DNA of 64,000 bases from Rhodocyclaceae bacterium. GTDB lineage: Bacteria; Pseudomonadota; Gammaproteobacteria; Burkholderiales; Rhodocyclaceae. The DNA lies in assembly GCA_026417115.1 (NCBI GenBank), contig JAOADW010000038.1, positions 28,702 to 92,701 on the forward strand, written 5' to 3'. Position 1 is the stretch's first letter; every line of letters starts with the position of its first letter. The notes under the pieces are model-generated. The model saw nothing but the letters and a program-made list of their open reading frames with translations. It did no database searches and was not told the origin of the DNA. A program made the position numbers and the translations under genes. Shown here piece after piece: positions 15,818-64,000 of this stretch.

Positions 15818-17784
<1,967 letters not shown>

Positions 17785-17790
17785 CGCCAC

Positions 17791-18339
17791 TCAAAATGCA
17801 GGCTTTTCCTTGGCGGCCTGGTAGCGAGCCACACCCTCCATGATCTCTCGCTTGGCCTCCTCGGGACCGACCCAGCCCTCGACTTTGACGAACTTGCCGG
17901 GCTCGAGATCCTTGTAATGCGCGAAGAAATGCGCAATCTGATCGAGCAGGATCTGGGGGAGATCACGGGGGGATTCCACCGCACGATACATCGGCGTGAG
18001 CTTGTCGACCGGCACCGCCAAGAGCTTGGCGTCTTCGCCCGATTCATCGACCATCTTGAGCATCCCGATCGGCCGGCAGCGCACCACCACTCCCGGCGGC
18101 AACGCAAACTGCGAGACCACCAAGACGTCGACGGGGTCGCCATCGCCAGCGATGGTATGCGGAATGTAGCCATAGTTGCAGGGATAATGCATCGCGGTAG
18201 ACATGAAGCGGTCTACGAAGATGGCGCCCGATTCCTTGTCGACTTCGTATTTGATCGGCTCGGCATGCATCGAAATCTCGATGATGACGTTGAAATCATT
18301 GGGCAAATCCTTGCCGGAAGGCACGTCCTTCAAAGCCAC
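17791..18339 (-). CDS. ppa: Inorganic pyrophosphatase (family I)
   Basis: The 182-residue cytoplasmic enzyme hydrolyses pyrophosphate and drives biosynthetic reactions forward. The family I signature DGDPVDVLV (metal-binding Asps) and the substrate-binding stretch NYGYIPHT are intact, and the length fits the bacterial hexameric type. It is separated from nadE by only a few bases. The region between ppa and copZ is 36 bases, with a modest GGAGTC ribosome site before ppa. Confidence 0.96.
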
Positions 18340-31597: not shown

Positions 31598-32131
31598 TCA
31601 ATTTTCGCCTATGATGATTTCCTCTTTCGCCGGCAACAAGACGCTTGCCAGCAAGCGCCATTGCCGTGCTTCGTCCTCGATCAGGATCAGCCAATGACCT
31701 GAGGCCGGCAGTTCGAACCGACCTTGATAGGTCTCACCTGTGCGCAAGAGCAGGCTTTCACGATCCAGGCCAGCCCGCGTGGGATGAGACAAGGTCAGCC
31801 GCAAGGCTTGTGGAGGTGTAAATCCCTCGGCGCGCGCCGAAAGAACGACCCTGGCGCGCTCGCCGCTTATGTGCATGCGCGCCGTCAGACCCAGTGCGGC
31901 GGCGCGCTCGCTTCTAGCGACCGTCTCGCCGGCGCGCAGGCCTTCCTGATAGTAGTTTTCGGTCACCAGCCCATCGCTGGTATGCACCGCCAGATAAAGG
32001 GTGACGAAGCCAGCAATCACGACCACCAAGGGGCCAGCCATGAGCAGCCACGGCCAAGGCTCACGATACCAAGGACGCGCCGGCATTTTGCCAGCCGCTC
32101 GATAAGTGGTTTCGATACGGTTTTCGATCAT
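31598..32131 (-). CDS. ccoH: CcoH/FixH-family cbb3 oxidase assembly protein
   Basis: The 177-residue protein has one N-terminal membrane helix (LLMAGPLVVVIAGFVTLYLAV) followed by the FixH periplasmic domain (VTENYYQEGL, then GHWLILIEDEARQWRL). CcoH interacts with CcoN and stabilises the cbb3 complex during assembly. Its ATG overlaps the ccoG stop by four bases. The assignment rests on family pattern plus its place after ccoG. Confidence 0.9.
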   Translation of the reverse strand: MIENRIETTYRAAGKMPARPWYREPWPWLLMAGPLVVVIAGFVTLYLAVHTSDGLVTENYYQEGLRAGETVARSERAAALGLTARMHISGERARVVLSARAEGFTPPQALRLTLSHPTRAGLDRESLLLRTGETYQGRFELPASGHWLILIEDEARQWRLLASVLLPAKEEIIIGEN

Positions 32132-33549
32132 GGCACCAGGAATGTCGTTTTTTCATGCACGTGCGCCTTCGCATCGACAAGCGAGCGCACATCGAAATAA
32201 ATGACATGCGACCCTTTGCCCACGGCGTCAGGCGGTATGCGAACAGAATAGGAAAACGTGCGCGTCGTCGCCGGCGGCACCTCGATTTCAGGGCTGCCGA
32301 CCAACTCGATGCCTGGAATGCCACTGACTTCGAGCTGGTAGCGGTGCGCTTTTTCACTCACATTCATCACTTGCAGGCTATAGACATTTTCGATCATCCC
32401 TTCGACCTCGCGCGCGAGCACGCCGCGATCGCGGATCACGTCGACGCGCAGGTCTTTTTTGTTCCATAGCCCCCAGGCGAGCCCTGAGACGAAGGCGGCC
32501 AGGATGACGGTATAGACGAGGATGCGCGGTCGCACCACGTGACGCAAGATTTCTTTCTTGCCCCAATGAAAGGCCATCGCATTTTCCGTCGTATAGCGGA
32601 TCAGGCCGCGCGGGTAGCCCATCTTGTCCATCCCTTCATCACACGCGTCGATACAAGCCGCACAGCCGATACATTCATACTGCAGGCCATTGCGGATGTC
32701 GATGCCGGTCGGACAAACCTGCACACAAATGCTGCAATCGATGCAATCGCCCAGCCCCATGCTTTTGGGATCGACGCCTTTTTTGCGCGCGCCTCGCGGC
32801 TCCCCACGCTCGACATCATAAGTGATGATCAGCGTGTCCGGATCGAACATCACGCTCTGGAAGCGGGCATAGGGGCACATATAAAGGCAGACCTGCTCGC
32901 GCAAATGTCCGGCGAATACATACGTGAAGGCGCCATAGAAAAAAATCCAAAAGGTTTCCCACGGGCCGAGATTCCAGGTCCAGAAGGCATCCCAGAGTTC
33001 GCGAATGGGCGTGAAATAGCCGACGAAGGTAAATCCGGTCCACCACGCGACCAGCGCCCAAAGCAGATATTTGGTCGCCCGCAGACGGAATTTGCGCGCA
33101 TCCATCGGCGCGGCGTCGAGTTTGATGCGGGCAGGCCGTTCTCCTTCGACGAGCTTTTCGATCCACATGAAAATTTCCGTGTAGACCGTCTGAGGGCAAG
33201 CATAGCCGCACCACAATCGCCCTGCCACCGCGGTGAAGAGGAAGAGCGCATAGGCCGAAATGATCAACAAAATGGCCAGAAAGAATACGTCTTGCGGCCA
33301 GAGGACAAGGCCGAAAAGATAAAACTTGCGCTGTACGAGATCGAAGAGTACCGCTGGCCGGTCTCCCCAAGTTAGCCACGGGAGACCATAAAAGATGATC
33401 TGGGTCAGCCAGACGAAGATCCAACGCCAGGTCGCAAATCGCCCGGTCGCCGTGCGGGGATGGATTTTCTTGTGTTTTTTGTAGAGTGTGACGACCTGTT
33501 CCGTCGCCGCCTCTAGCTTTGTCGAATCGGGGGTGGGATGCGTGCTCAT
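32128..33549 (-). CDS. ccoG: CcoG, membrane polyferredoxin of cbb3 oxidase assembly
   Basis: The 473-residue protein has about five membrane helices, the CGYACPQTVYTEIFMWIEK motif, two 4Fe-4S sites (CIDCSICVQVCP and CIGCAACIDAC), and a C-terminal Ig-like FixG domain. CcoG is reported to reduce Cu(II) to Cu(I) for cbb3 biogenesis. ATG 33549 is preferred over a GTG 12 codons upstream because family members begin near MSTxP. It is separated from ccoP by 120 bp holding a strong hairpin, and is coupled to ccoH. Confidence 0.93.
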   Translation of the reverse strand: MSTHPTPDSTKLEAATEQVVTLYKKHKKIHPRTATGRFATWRWIFVWLTQIIFYGLPWLTWGDRPAVLFDLVQRKFYLFGLVLWPQDVFFLAILLIISAYALFLFTAVAGRLWCGYACPQTVYTEIFMWIEKLVEGERPARIKLDAAPMDARKFRLRATKYLLWALVAWWTGFTFVGYFTPIRELWDAFWTWNLGPWETFWIFFYGAFTYVFAGHLREQVCLYMCPYARFQSVMFDPDTLIITYDVERGEPRGARKKGVDPKSMGLGDCIDCSICVQVCPTGIDIRNGLQYECIGCAACIDACDEGMDKMGYPRGLIRYTTENAMAFHWGKKEILRHVVRPRILVYTVILAAFVSGLAWGLWNKKDLRVDVIRDRGVLAREVEGMIENVYSLQVMNVSEKAHRYQLEVSGIPGIELVGSPEIEVPPATTRTFSYSVRIPPDAVGKGSHVIYFDVRSLVDAKAHVHEKTTFLVP

Positions 33550-33632
33550 CTGTGGGTTCTTTTGGGCAAGAAAAAGTTTCAGCACCTAGACGTCGTCTCG
33601 CGCGCCCCCTACGCGCTTCCAACGCACGAAAG

Positions 33633-60904: not shown

Positions 60905-62125
60905 ATGCCCAGGACCGTAGTTCCGCTGACGGATTCGCAGATCCGTTCGGCCAAACCGCGCGACAAGCGCTACTGGCTGCATGACGGGCGGGGGTTGCTG
61001 CTGCAGGTGTCCCCCTCCGGCAGCAAGCGGTGGGTTCTCCGTTATGACTGCAACGGACGGCAAAATTTCGTCGCGCTGAGAAATCCTGCGGGCTCCAACG
61101 AGTATCCGTACGTGAGCTTGGCGGAAGCCCGCCGATTGGCGGAGGAGGTCAGGGCGATGATTGCGCAGGGGATTGATCCGGCGCAGAAGCCCCGAGAGGC
61201 GGATCAGGACCCCGCACAGCGCACGTTCCGGGAGGTGGCCGAGGCCTGGCATCGTGAAAAGACGCCAGGGTGGTCCAAGGCCACACAACGTAAGGCCAGG
61301 ATGATCCTGGACACCTATCTGTACCCGCACTTGGCGGAGATTCCCGTTACCAGCCTCAATACTGCACAGGTCAAACCCGCGCTGGTGCTGCTGCACGACA
61401 AGGCCCCTGATCTTGCAGTCAAGGCCCGGCAATACTGCAACCAGATCGTCGAATATGCCATCCAGGAGGGTTTGCGCGAGGATGGTAGATTATTGATCCT
61501 GAAAGGCATATTCCCGCGCAGCGGCGGCAAGAACCACTATCCCGCTATCACGCGGGAAAACCTTCTGCCGAGCCTGGTGGAAGCCATCTCCAGGGTGCCG
61601 ACACTCAGAGTTCGCACCGCGCTATGGATGTGCGCTTACACCGTCCTGCGTCCGGGTGTGGTCGTCCGGGCGGAGTGGTCCGAACTGGACCTTCAAGCGA
61701 AAGAATGGCACATCCCGGCAGACAAGATGAAAATGGGCTTCGCCCACGTCAGCCCGCTACCCGTGCAGTTGGTAGAGAGACTGAAACTGTTGCAGGACCT
61801 GGCGGGGGAGGGCAGGTATGTCTTCCCGGGAAAACAGCATGCACAACACCTCAGTCGCGACAGCCTCTCCCAGGCCCTTCGCAAACAAGGACTCCGGGAC
61901 ATCCTCGTTCCTCACGGCCTGCGCGCGACGTTTCGCACCTTGGCTAGAGAACGGCTCCACATTGCACCGGAGGTCTTGGAGGCCCAGCTGGCGCACGCCA
62001 AGAGAGACGAAATCCAAGCCGCGTATGACCGCACCCAGCTGTTGCAAGAGCGGCATGTCGCCGTGCAGGCCTGGGCGGATTATCTGGCCAGAGTATCTCA
62101 GACCCAGGCTGCAGAGCAGGTCTGA
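60905..62125 (+). CDS. P4-type tyrosine recombinase (island integrase)
   Basis: The 406-residue integrase has the N-terminal DUF4102 arm-binding domain (LTDSQIRSAKPRDKRYWLHD), a core-binding domain and a catalytic domain with Arg249 (TVLRPGVV), the HxxR box His337-Arg340 (HGLRATF), His364 (LAHAK) and nucleophile Tyr374 (AYDRTQ). All needed residues are present, so it may be active. Its codon use favours CTG and GGG more than the core genes, which fits transfer. It marks the start of an island extending to the right. The neighbouring tRNA expected for this family is not in the window. Confidence 0.93.
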   Translation: MPRTVVPLTDSQIRSAKPRDKRYWLHDGRGLLLQVSPSGSKRWVLRYDCNGRQNFVALRNPAGSNEYPYVSLAEARRLAEEVRAMIAQGIDPAQKPREADQDPAQRTFREVAEAWHREKTPGWSKATQRKARMILDTYLYPHLAEIPVTSLNTAQVKPALVLLHDKAPDLAVKARQYCNQIVEYAIQEGLREDGRLLILKGIFPRSGGKNHYPAITRENLLPSLVEAISRVPTLRVRTALWMCAYTVLRPGVVVRAEWSELDLQAKEWHIPADKMKMGFAHVSPLPVQLVERLKLLQDLAGEGRYVFPGKQHAQHLSRDSLSQALRKQGLRDILVPHGLRATFRTLARERLHIAPEVLEAQLAHAKRDEIQAAYDRTQLLQERHVAVQAWADYLARVSQTQAAEQV

Positions 62126-62142
62126 GTCACGTCAGGGAATCG

Positions 62143-62180
62143 CCGTGCCGGGATGCTGCCGTGGCAGCACCCCGGCACGG
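62143..62180. terminator. Long hairpin downstream of the integrase
   Basis: CCGTGCCGGG/CCCGGCACGG (10 bp) and TGCTGCC/GGCAGCA (7 bp) form one long hairpin with a single mismatched A-C pair. On the minus strand the mismatch becomes a G-U pair, so that strand folds slightly better. It is 18 bp after the integrase stop. A T-run is lacking, so it may be a bidirectional terminator or a structured recognition element. Confidence 0.6.
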
Positions 62181-62608
62181 GTTCCGTATCCGTTCATCAA
62201 CCTTTCCGCGCTGCCGATTCATGAAGCCAACCCAGCGCAGGCACATAGGCCTGGAAGGCCAAGCAAAACCAAGAGTCACCGTAGGATGCAGGGCTGATTT
62301 TGCCGCACATCTCATCAGTCCGGTGAACCCGTAGACACCCCGGTGGGACAGGCCGAAGGATGGGGGATGCCGCTACCTCGGTGTGGCTTGCCCTCTTACC
62401 ACTCTCGGTATTGATACTATCCCAGCTGGAGCCGCCCGCCGCTGTCTTGGCTGAACTCGCCGGCACGAACTACCAGCCGCCGGCCGGCGAGATGGGGTGG
62501 TCTGAGGTACCGCTCAACCCGTTCGATCCGCGTCAGCGCCGGGCGGAACACAACAATGAGTGGTCGTGCGAGAACAGGGTGGCGTGCGCGGGTGTGCCGG
62601 GTATCGTC
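62181..62608. other. Island stretch without recognised genes
   Basis: Open frames exist on both strands (for example 62360-62797 plus, starting with a hydrophobic LLPLSVLILSQL segment, and 62197-62466 minus), but none has a ribosome site or recognised family and they overlap one another. It could contain decayed genes. Base composition is somewhat less extreme than the core. Confidence 0.35.
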
Positions 62609-62824: not shown

Positions 62825-62856
62825 CCGTAGCTGGTCACTCAGCTAACATTCGTTAC

Positions 62857-62883
62857 AGCATACCAGATGGTAGCGTTCGTCAA
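62857..62883 (-). promoter_or_regulatory. Sigma70-like promoter for the small minus-strand frame
   Basis: On the minus strand, TTGACG is followed after 15 bases by TATGCT, preceded by TGG (extended -10). The spacer is short, but the extended -10 may compensate. It ends 33 bp before the ATG at 62824. Confidence 0.35.
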
Positions 62884-63083
62884 GGTGGTGAAATTTCTGG
62901 ACACTAAATCGCACACGCCCATCCTGTCTTGTTTTGTAGGTGATGGTCCGGGGCGTTAAGCGCACGCCCCCGACCGGCAATCGGCGCCCCGTTTGAGGTC
63001 GGGGCCACACCTTGAATCAGGCGTGTCACAGCCACGCCGAAGCTGTCTTTCTCAGTGTTGACCTCCTTTCCGTTATCGCCGCC

Positions 63084-63163
63084 CACCCCGCCAAGGGTGA
63101 AGCTGCCTGTCACCGACGCCAATCGGTGATAGGCTGTTACCAGCAATCGCGCCGCCAAGCGCG
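63084..63163 (-). repeat. Hairpin array L: three stems, identical loop UUGGCG (minus strand)
   Basis: Three hairpins with unrelated stems share the same 6-base loop, UUGGCG on the minus strand. They are 63084-63099 (stem CACCC/GGGTG), 63105-63134 (12 bp, one wobble) and 63148-63163 (stem CGCGC/GCGCG). Constant loops on changing stems show that the structure and the loop are the conserved features. The loop is the exact complement of the loop of array R. Confidence 0.7.
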
Positions 63164-63816
63164 TCAAGTCTCGTTTACCCCTGCCGTCTTTCGGCCGCCG
63201 GTCGCCCGGCCGTCACCCACATGCTTCGACCACATCGCATGCAGGTTTCCGACGCCTACTCAACAGCGCTCCCGGTCTTCCGAACCGCTTTTGTCGGCGG
63301 TTCCGCCCCAGTGTCCGGTGCCACCCGGACGGCGTGAAGACCTTCCCACGTTAGCGTGTCGCTACTGCGTGAATGAACGCCACTGCCTCGCAATTGGGCC
63401 TAGCCTCGCGGCTCTCCTTGGATTTCCCCCGCCCGATGTTCCATAGCGGCTGGGGTACTCGGCACAATGCTTCCAGCTGTGGTCACCGCGGACTGATGCC
63501 GCGGAGATGGCTTTCATGCACTCCCGAACGCCTCCCCCTCGGAGGCGATTAGACGCTTGAGCTATCCTGCGATCTCGGCGGCTTGCGCCCCCGAGTACCA
63601 CCCGGTCCGCCTTTCGGCTTCCGGGCTCATCCGGGTCACCCCGGATGCGTGCAGCCCACGTCTCGGGCACAGGTTGTACGGTTTCCCGCACCCCCTGGGC
63701 GGTGCTGACATCCTCTTGTGGAGGACTCCCGCTTTCGCTTCACGCAGGGTCATTCCGGTCACCCGGATGCCCGTGTCCGTGTCGCCCAACATGCTCATGT
63801 CTTGGATTGGGTCGAA

Positions 63817-63988
63817 GGAGGTTGGCAGCCTCCAGCGCCCGTTGCAGCCGCGCCAGCCCGATTAGAGGCACGCGGCTACGGGGGTAAGACTCGGCAGTTT
63901 GGCGACTGCCGAGAGAGACACTTGCAGGGGGATGTCTGGCGCCATCCCCCTGCCGCTTGGCGGCTTGGGGGACGTTTGGCGCCGTCCC
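63817..63988 (-). repeat. Hairpin array R: four or five stems, loop CGCCAA (minus strand)
   Basis: Hairpins at 63890-63913 (9 bp), 63924-63953 (11 bp), 63952-63964 (5 bp) and 63969-63988 (6 bp) present CGCCAA, GCGCCAGA, CAA within CGCCAAG, and GCGCCAAA on the minus strand. A looser member is at 63817-63833 (loop CTGCCAA). The stems differ completely. The array may continue past the window's right edge. The loops can pair base for base with those of array L. Confidence 0.7.
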
Positions 63989-64000
63989 AGTGCTGATGTC

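Follow-up and report, generated by a model that had tools for sequence, protein, structure and literature searches.

The two hairpin arrays near the right-hand end of the window (the whole 64,000-nucleotide stretch of Rhodocyclaceae DNA analyzed here) are the 5′ end (array R) and the 3′ end (array L) of a single minus-strand RNA of about 1 kb. Judged by homology and anatomy, the RNA carrying both arrays is a circularly permuted (CP) group II ribozyme, and its loops are predicted to pair with one another, probably clamping the 5′ module onto the 3′ module. We infer that the loops kiss within one molecule and have several interchangeable partners, which would make the clamp multivalent. Overall, the element is a member of a known ribozyme class that elaborates its end-to-end pairing in a new way, and it provides a lead on a protein partner.

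Hairpin arrays at the end of the window

Since the minus strand is the RNA sense, arrays L and R of the preliminary description correspond to the 3′ and 5′ ends of the RNA, respectively. Array L was present as described, with three hairpins that share the exact plus-strand loop CGCCAA; on the minus strand, they read cgcgc-TTGGCG-gcgcg (t1, 63148-63163), tcaccga-TTGGCG-tcggtga (t2, 63110-63129), and ttcaccc-TTGGCG-gggtggg (t3, 63082-63101; same place in the relatives L104 and L126). For array R, at least four hairpins with the complementary loop had been claimed, of which three are clear and the fourth is doubtful. The clear ones are h4 (63890-63913; ctcggcagt-CGCCAA-actgccgag on the minus strand), which has the plus-strand loop TTGGCG, stands at the P2 position, and adjoins domain 5 (D5); h3 (63924-63953; gcagggggatg-GCGCCAGA-catccccctgc on the minus strand), whose plus-strand loop TCTGGCGC contains CTGGCG rather than TTGGCG; and the outermost hairpin h1 (63969-63988; gggacg-GCGCCAAA-cgtccc on the minus strand), which has the plus-strand loop TTTGGCGC and is found at the same place in L104, L004, L101, and L126. 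The fourth, h2 (63952-63964; GCCGC-CAA-GCGGC on the minus strand, GCCGC-TTG-GCGGC on the plus strand), has part of the hexamer paired within the stem and is a doubtful candidate for kissing; a GCCA word stands here in L104, L004, L101, and L126. Read as RNA, the loops have the sequence CGCCA(A/G) at the 5′ end and UUGGCG at the 3′ end. Two further hairpins were absent from the preliminary description, namely one at the place of domain 2 (D2; 63313-63330, minus strand, gtccgg-GTGGCA-ccggac; plus-strand loop TGCCAC), which belongs to the UGG loop set, and a degenerate fourth 3′ hairpin (63028-63046, minus strand, acagc-TTCGGCGTG-gctgt, with TTTGGCGTG in L104).

The word CGCCAA was common in the window, with 126 matches on both strands against 72 expected, and 12 of the 18 plus-strand hairpins with such loops lay elsewhere in the window. 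The total of 18 exceeded that in any of 100 dinucleotide shuffles (mean 8.1, largest 17), and six hairpins fell within 1000 bases, compared with a maximum of three in 100 dinucleotide shuffles. The clustering of the array hairpins is not due to chance. When folded in isolation, the 5′ array had a z score of −5.1, and its minimum-energy structure contained the 63890-63913 hairpin and the doubtful h2; h1 and h3, whose loops together with the closing base contain GGCGCC, were absent from it. The isolated 3′ array had a z score of −2.0 (9 of 200 shuffles folded as well), with all three hairpins formed and, within each loop, a pair between the outermost U and G.

The window comprises the last 64,000 bases of its contig, which stops at window base 64000, so array R cannot be followed further rightward. 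The 5′ array may be nearly complete, because the outermost hairpin of L126, L004, and L104 is preceded by a TATAC word roughly 30 to 40 bases upstream. Among the relatives, 52 of 84 RNAs have a TATA[CA] word upstream, part of these certainly coincidental, and 25 of 83 have a downstream terminator-like hairpin with a T run. No local promoter or terminator was found in 62850-63200 of the window.

Assignment to the CP group II ribozymes

A D5-D6-D1 profile built from nine sequences (two identical), with the plasmids pPNAP05 and pTT8 left out, matched pPNAP05 with an E value of 1.8e-19 and pTT8 with an E value of 4.6e-5. Both plasmids have been named as carriers of CP group II RNA (Roth et al. 2021, PMC8637638). 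In an alignment of 19 RNAs (A2), double changes occurred in 18 of the 23 predicted pairs of D5 and domain 6 (D6), and the bulged branch adenosine of D6 was invariant in all 19 and unpaired in the consensus. In the window, D5, with an AGC triad and a 2-nt bulge (63846-63877, minus strand), is supported by this covariation and by the two profile matches; it sits 5′ of D6 (63809-63840, minus strand) and D1, which is the CP group II order. D6 carries the bulged branch-point adenosine at 63812 and the loop CUGCCAA in a hairpin at 63817-63833. Two motifs described by Roth et al. (PMC8637638), NU at the 3′ splice site and GGGCG at the 5′ splice site, could be read in the window, where they bound the 18-nt linker between D6 and D1 (63788-63805, minus strand), the predicted RNA circle. 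The D1-D4 body (63165-63787, minus strand) was placed by homologue alignment and follows the published order (PMC8637638), D2 alone being individually assigned, by position.

This anatomy agrees with the earlier proposal that both arrays lie in one RNA and flank a central structured domain. The accompanying statement that no described element of such design was known was not supported, as the RNA is a CP group II RNA, for which Roth et al. proposed loop pseudoknots (PMC8637638). So far as the available part of that article goes, published CP group II RNAs and the window element share the order D5-D6-linker-D1-D2-D3-D4, the splice-site motifs, plasmid carriage, and, in relatives, acpG beside the RNA; the P2-D2 and P1-3′ end loop pairings proposed for the former may also form in the latter. 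The window differs in having three or four same-code hairpins per end, compared with a single P1 loop and a single 3′ segment in the available main text, and in a D6 loop that also carries UGCCA. Multiplication into arrays was not found in the available main text (PMC8637638), the supplement of which may show arrays. No further paper on CP group II RNA or AcpG was found among the matches listed for open-licence PMC.

Other assignments of this region were rejected. A coding reading was dropped because the RNA anatomy accounts for the 63000-64000 stretch, whose only frames of at least 100 amino acids are of 144, 109, and 102 amino acids. None of the 4227 families of Rfam 15, among which ROOL, GOLLD, and OLE are counted, matched the window above its gathering threshold, and at lax limits only weak matches were obtained (62131-62190, outside the RNA); a tRNA, a tmRNA, or an Rfam family was rejected for the array stretch. 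The homology to CP group II also led us to reject a new ornate RNA family. Like the window RNA, ROOL, GOLLD, and OLE are large ornate bacterial RNAs, and their homo-oligomers have been reported (PMC12286853, consulted in part), whereas the window RNA is a group II derivative that matches no Rfam family.

Relatives and genomic context

With blastn, relatives of the array stretch were detected in 25 plasmid records and, apart from its own genome, in 6 of 100 related genomes. Plasmid searches from two relatives returned 35 and 28 records in overlapping sets, one being Polaromonas pPNAP05. A covariance model (R1), the seed of which includes the window, matched 30 of 399 genomes in the order sample, 11 of 369 in the class sample, and 6 of 398 in the phylum sample, with genome G000 present in all three samples and G178 in two. 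A DNA pattern gave 56 stretches in the genome collection, part of them unconfirmed by the profile; no viral relatives were found with one pattern in viral_contigs and blastn of the phage collection. The pooled loci comprised 111 profile matches including D5 at an E value of 0.001, which were reduced to 88 distinct RNAs.

Over these 88 RNAs, the loops follow a general code, xyCCA at the 5′ end and UGGy′x′ at the 3′ end. At least one xyCCA hairpin on the 5′ side together with at least one UGGyx hairpin on the 3′ side was present in 64 of the 80 RNAs with full flanks, and at least two at both ends in 34 of the 80; at least two hairpins of one code faced at least two of its complement, D2 included, in 11 of 71 RNAs. 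The numbers of 5′ CGCCA and 3′ UGGCG hairpins showed only a moderate correlation (Spearman 0.33, p = 0.005). In the near relatives L104, L004, L101, and L126, four 5′ GCCA words, three 3′ loops, and the D2 loop are retained on stems that differ, and L093 keeps three 5′ words, the D2 loop, and two 3′ loops. That the loops are constrained while the stems are unrelated, as first described, is supported by the relatives, in which the stems change with pairing kept and the loops stay. The D6 loop UGCCA, which could pair with D2, is present in the window, L104, and G046 and absent from L101 and L126.

The surroundings of the RNA gene vary. In the Pandoraea plasmid pPO70-4, an IS256 element interrupts the RNA gene where D6 begins (L025, 7248-8513). 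Two CP group II RNAs are present on the Thiothrix plasmid pTunz1 (L015, ~16700-18150 and 32000-33600), each within a few kilobases or less of a replication gene. Integrase-like genes stand near the RNA in the window (60905-62125, by Pfam) and, by frame reading, in G046 (L016, 7952-9664), suggesting that the RNA also rides on integrating elements. A strong 18-bp inverted repeat of terminator-like shape directly follows the integrase gene of the window (62143-62180).

Complementarity and co-change of the loop codes

The word GCCAA fell within a hairpin loop at 93 of 155 places in the 5′ region, compared with 45 of 1016 in flanking DNA, and UUGGC did so at 121 of 166 places in the 3′ region, compared with 49 of 1018. 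Wrong-sense words were in hairpin loops in 1 of 7 and 0 of 23 cases. The preference for loops holds only for the correct word at each end. Complementary loop pairs numbered 169, in 64 of the 88 RNAs, which was ninefold the number obtained when the letters of the 5′ loops were shuffled (mean 18.6, largest 34). An exact code partner in its own RNA was present for 93 of 180 3′ loops, compared with a mean of 60.6 and a maximum of 78 when sets were exchanged among 71 RNAs; the remaining 87 lacked one. For codes other than CG and UG, 18 of 64 loops were partnered against 3.6 (largest 12), leaving 46 rare-coded 3′ loops without an exact partner.

The preliminary description had also raised the question of whether the loops of the two arrays change together among homologues. 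Codes of P1 and the 3′ tail matched in 36 of 76 comparisons and those of P1 and D2 in 11 of 27, and in neither case was any of 5000 permutations as good, relatedness being left in for the former. Co-change was less clear between P2 and the 3′ tail (32 of 5000 permutations as good) and weak between P2 and D2 (14 of 34 matched; 224 of 5000 permutations reached it). None was seen between P1 and the loops at +600 to +680 (3 of 15 matched; 3183 of 5000 permutations as good). When exchange was confined to strata of 0.40 divergence, 1 of 2000 permutations was as good overall and 8 of 2000 for the 3′ tail alone; in the same strata, the second code letter agreed in 152 of 168 cases, which was equaled in 0 of 2000 permutations.

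Within strata of 0.25 and 0.32 divergence, co-change was not significant (206 of 2000 for the second letter at 0.32). A nearest-pair contrast among close relatives gave 14 for, 7 against, and 14 ties (p = 0.09); for 3′ loops beyond +600, it gave 11 for, 5 against, and 17 ties (p = 0.11), which became 5 for, 3 against, and 25 ties when wobble pairs were counted (p = 0.36). The weakening among close kin may arise partly because the first letter toggles between C and U, the U being able to wobble-pair with G; a 5′ C facing a 3′ A, which would be a mismatch, was also common.

Individual RNAs with other codes carry matching words at the two ends, for example CUACCAA/CUGGUAA and CAACCAA/GUGGUU in L023 (Paraburkholderia), GGCCAA/UUGGCC and CUAACCA/GUGGUU in L032 (Komagataeibacter), CUGACCA/UGGUC in L117, and CUACCCA/UGGGUG with CUCACCA/GUGGUG in L077. 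In pTT8, inspected by eye only, two 3′ hairpins have the loop GGCCGUAC and a 5′ stretch has ACGGCC. The window itself holds complementary words for the P1 loop and the 3′ end; for P2 and D2, the complementarity covers four bases (GCCA/UGGC), with a C-A mismatch between h4 and D2 at the fifth pair. Independent variation of the L and R loops, which by the preliminary description would have refuted pairing, was not seen at long distance, where the two ends change code in concert; among close relatives co-change was undetectable.

Alternatives to pairing within one RNA

If the loops joined separate molecules instead, RNAs would be linked by their arrays into dimers or larger assemblies. Having several equivalent loops at each end would permit this, other large bacterial RNAs form homo-oligomers (PMC12286853, in the part available), and the self-complementary word GGCGCC occurs in h1 and h3 of the window. 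However, this word is inconstant, being present among six clade RNAs only in the window, L104, and L126, and the published effect of deleting P2 is explained by single-RNA folding in the available text of PMC8637638. We consider assembly between molecules unlikely.

Pairing within one RNA also accounts better for the loops than recognition by a protein such as AcpG, with the likeness of the loops reflecting a binding site. A constant loop on varied stems would fit such a site, and AcpG-like genes adjoin the RNA in many elements, but the two ends carry complementary rather than identical words in the RNA sense, wrong-sense words are nearly absent from the loops, and both ends change together across distant RNAs, all of which makes a protein site improbable. 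It is more improbable still that the hairpins are alike because the sequence is rich in G+C and they descend from a common ancestor. The over-representation of CGCCAA throughout the window and the undetectable co-change among close relatives speak for such an origin; against it stand the clustering above all 100 shuffles, the unrelated stems that change with pairing kept, and the placement of the words in the 5′ and 3′ regions as compared with flanking DNA. Least credible is a role of the hairpins in DNA, as single-stranded sites for plasmid transfer or replication, for although the PLSDB carriers are typed non-mobilizable in 25 of 25, 34 of 35, and 28 of 28 records (overlapping sets, with no PLSDB baseline) and coupling-protein-like or T4SS genes lie beside or near the RNA in 6 of 20 records (L014, L023, L024, L025, L026, and L033), the D5-D6 structure, the branch site, and the published RNA catalysis explain the element as RNA, and replication of pTT8 is unaffected by deletion of almost all of the ribozyme, a chromosomal copy being a possible source of complementation (available text of PMC8637638 and work cited there).

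A candidate partner protein

An acpG gene is a frequent but not an obligatory neighbor of CP group II RNAs. In the relative G046, acpG lies divergently beside the RNA; any AcpG of the window's element would lie beyond the contig end at 64000. An AcpG is encoded at L016 5103-5996 on the minus strand, with homologues in other elements. Fifteen proteins were picked by position as AcpG, of which those of L027 and L032 were unrelated and dropped, leaving a 13-protein profile; the short L030 protein was also left out of alignments A3 and A4. Predicted models of two divergent AcpG proteins aligned best with group II intron maturases, with borderline scores. Profile-profile comparison gave an E value of 0.31, though the matched stretch, as we read it, falls close to the X domain of maturases.

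For AcpG, nothing significant was returned by Foldseek, a PDB search by sequence gave no match at E values up to 1, and NCBIfam gave weak matches only, far below the cut-offs (best E value 0.0056). The Pfam reverse transcriptase and GIIM families gave none at E values up to 1 in the ten proteins at the acpG position (of which that of L027 is not AcpG). The catalytic YxDD is not conserved, a [YF]xDD string being present in 3 of 65 AcpG sequences; the eight reverse transcriptases compared with AcpG had been picked by a YxDD-type motif and hence are no control. Group II intron RNPs, which consist of a ribozyme and an intron-encoded maturase, resemble the present system in their catalytic domains and in that the predicted AcpG fold aligns best, at borderline scores, with their maturases. 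They differ from it in that the CP element is permuted and has no maturase frame inside the RNA, and AcpG is much shorter than intron maturases and lacks a conserved YxDD. On the basis of the predicted models, this small partner protein may resemble the proteins that assist ordinary introns and may possibly help the clamp.

Discussion

Roth et al. propose a pseudoknot between the P1 loop and the 3′ end and another between P2 and D2, and suggest that these act as staples after permutation; in the same work, a Thermus RNA without P2 appeared inactive at 20 mM Mg and reacted at 100 mM (PMC8637638, in the part available). In our model, the 5′ module (hairpins, D5, and D6) would be held on the 3′ module (D1-D4 and hairpins) by redundant kissing loops. 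For the window RNA, this would place three CGCCA loops opposite three UUGGCG loops, and the GUGGCA of D2 would have two possible partners, h4 over four bases and the D6 loop (UGCCA) over five. The ribozyme would then, like the published CP group II RNAs, link its branch adenosine at 63812 to the D1 boundary and free the 18-nt circle. The clamp would stand in for the continuity lost by permutation, and the halves would stay together if the 5′ splice site were cut by water instead of by branching. Repeated hairpins of one code at both transcript ends would form a multivalent staple that tolerates the loss of single partners, with AcpG as a candidate protein helper.

If AcpG does prove to be a reduced maturase, CP group II RNAs have a protein partner, and AcpG would join Prp8 as another group II intron protein that lost catalysis and serves an RNA in trans. 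More speculatively, CP group II might be a bacterial counterpart of the spliceosome core, in which the halves of an opened and re-ordered ribozyme are held by a redundant, evolving loop code at both ends that also lets each plasmid's RNA recognize its own half, and separately encoded AcpG, like Prp8, descends from an intron maturase and has lost catalysis; we hold this wider view only tentatively. CP group II ribozymes are catalytic in vitro and occur on plasmids of many bacteria. A multivalent loop clamp would account for the ability of a group II ribozyme to retain its shape after its domains have been re-ordered.
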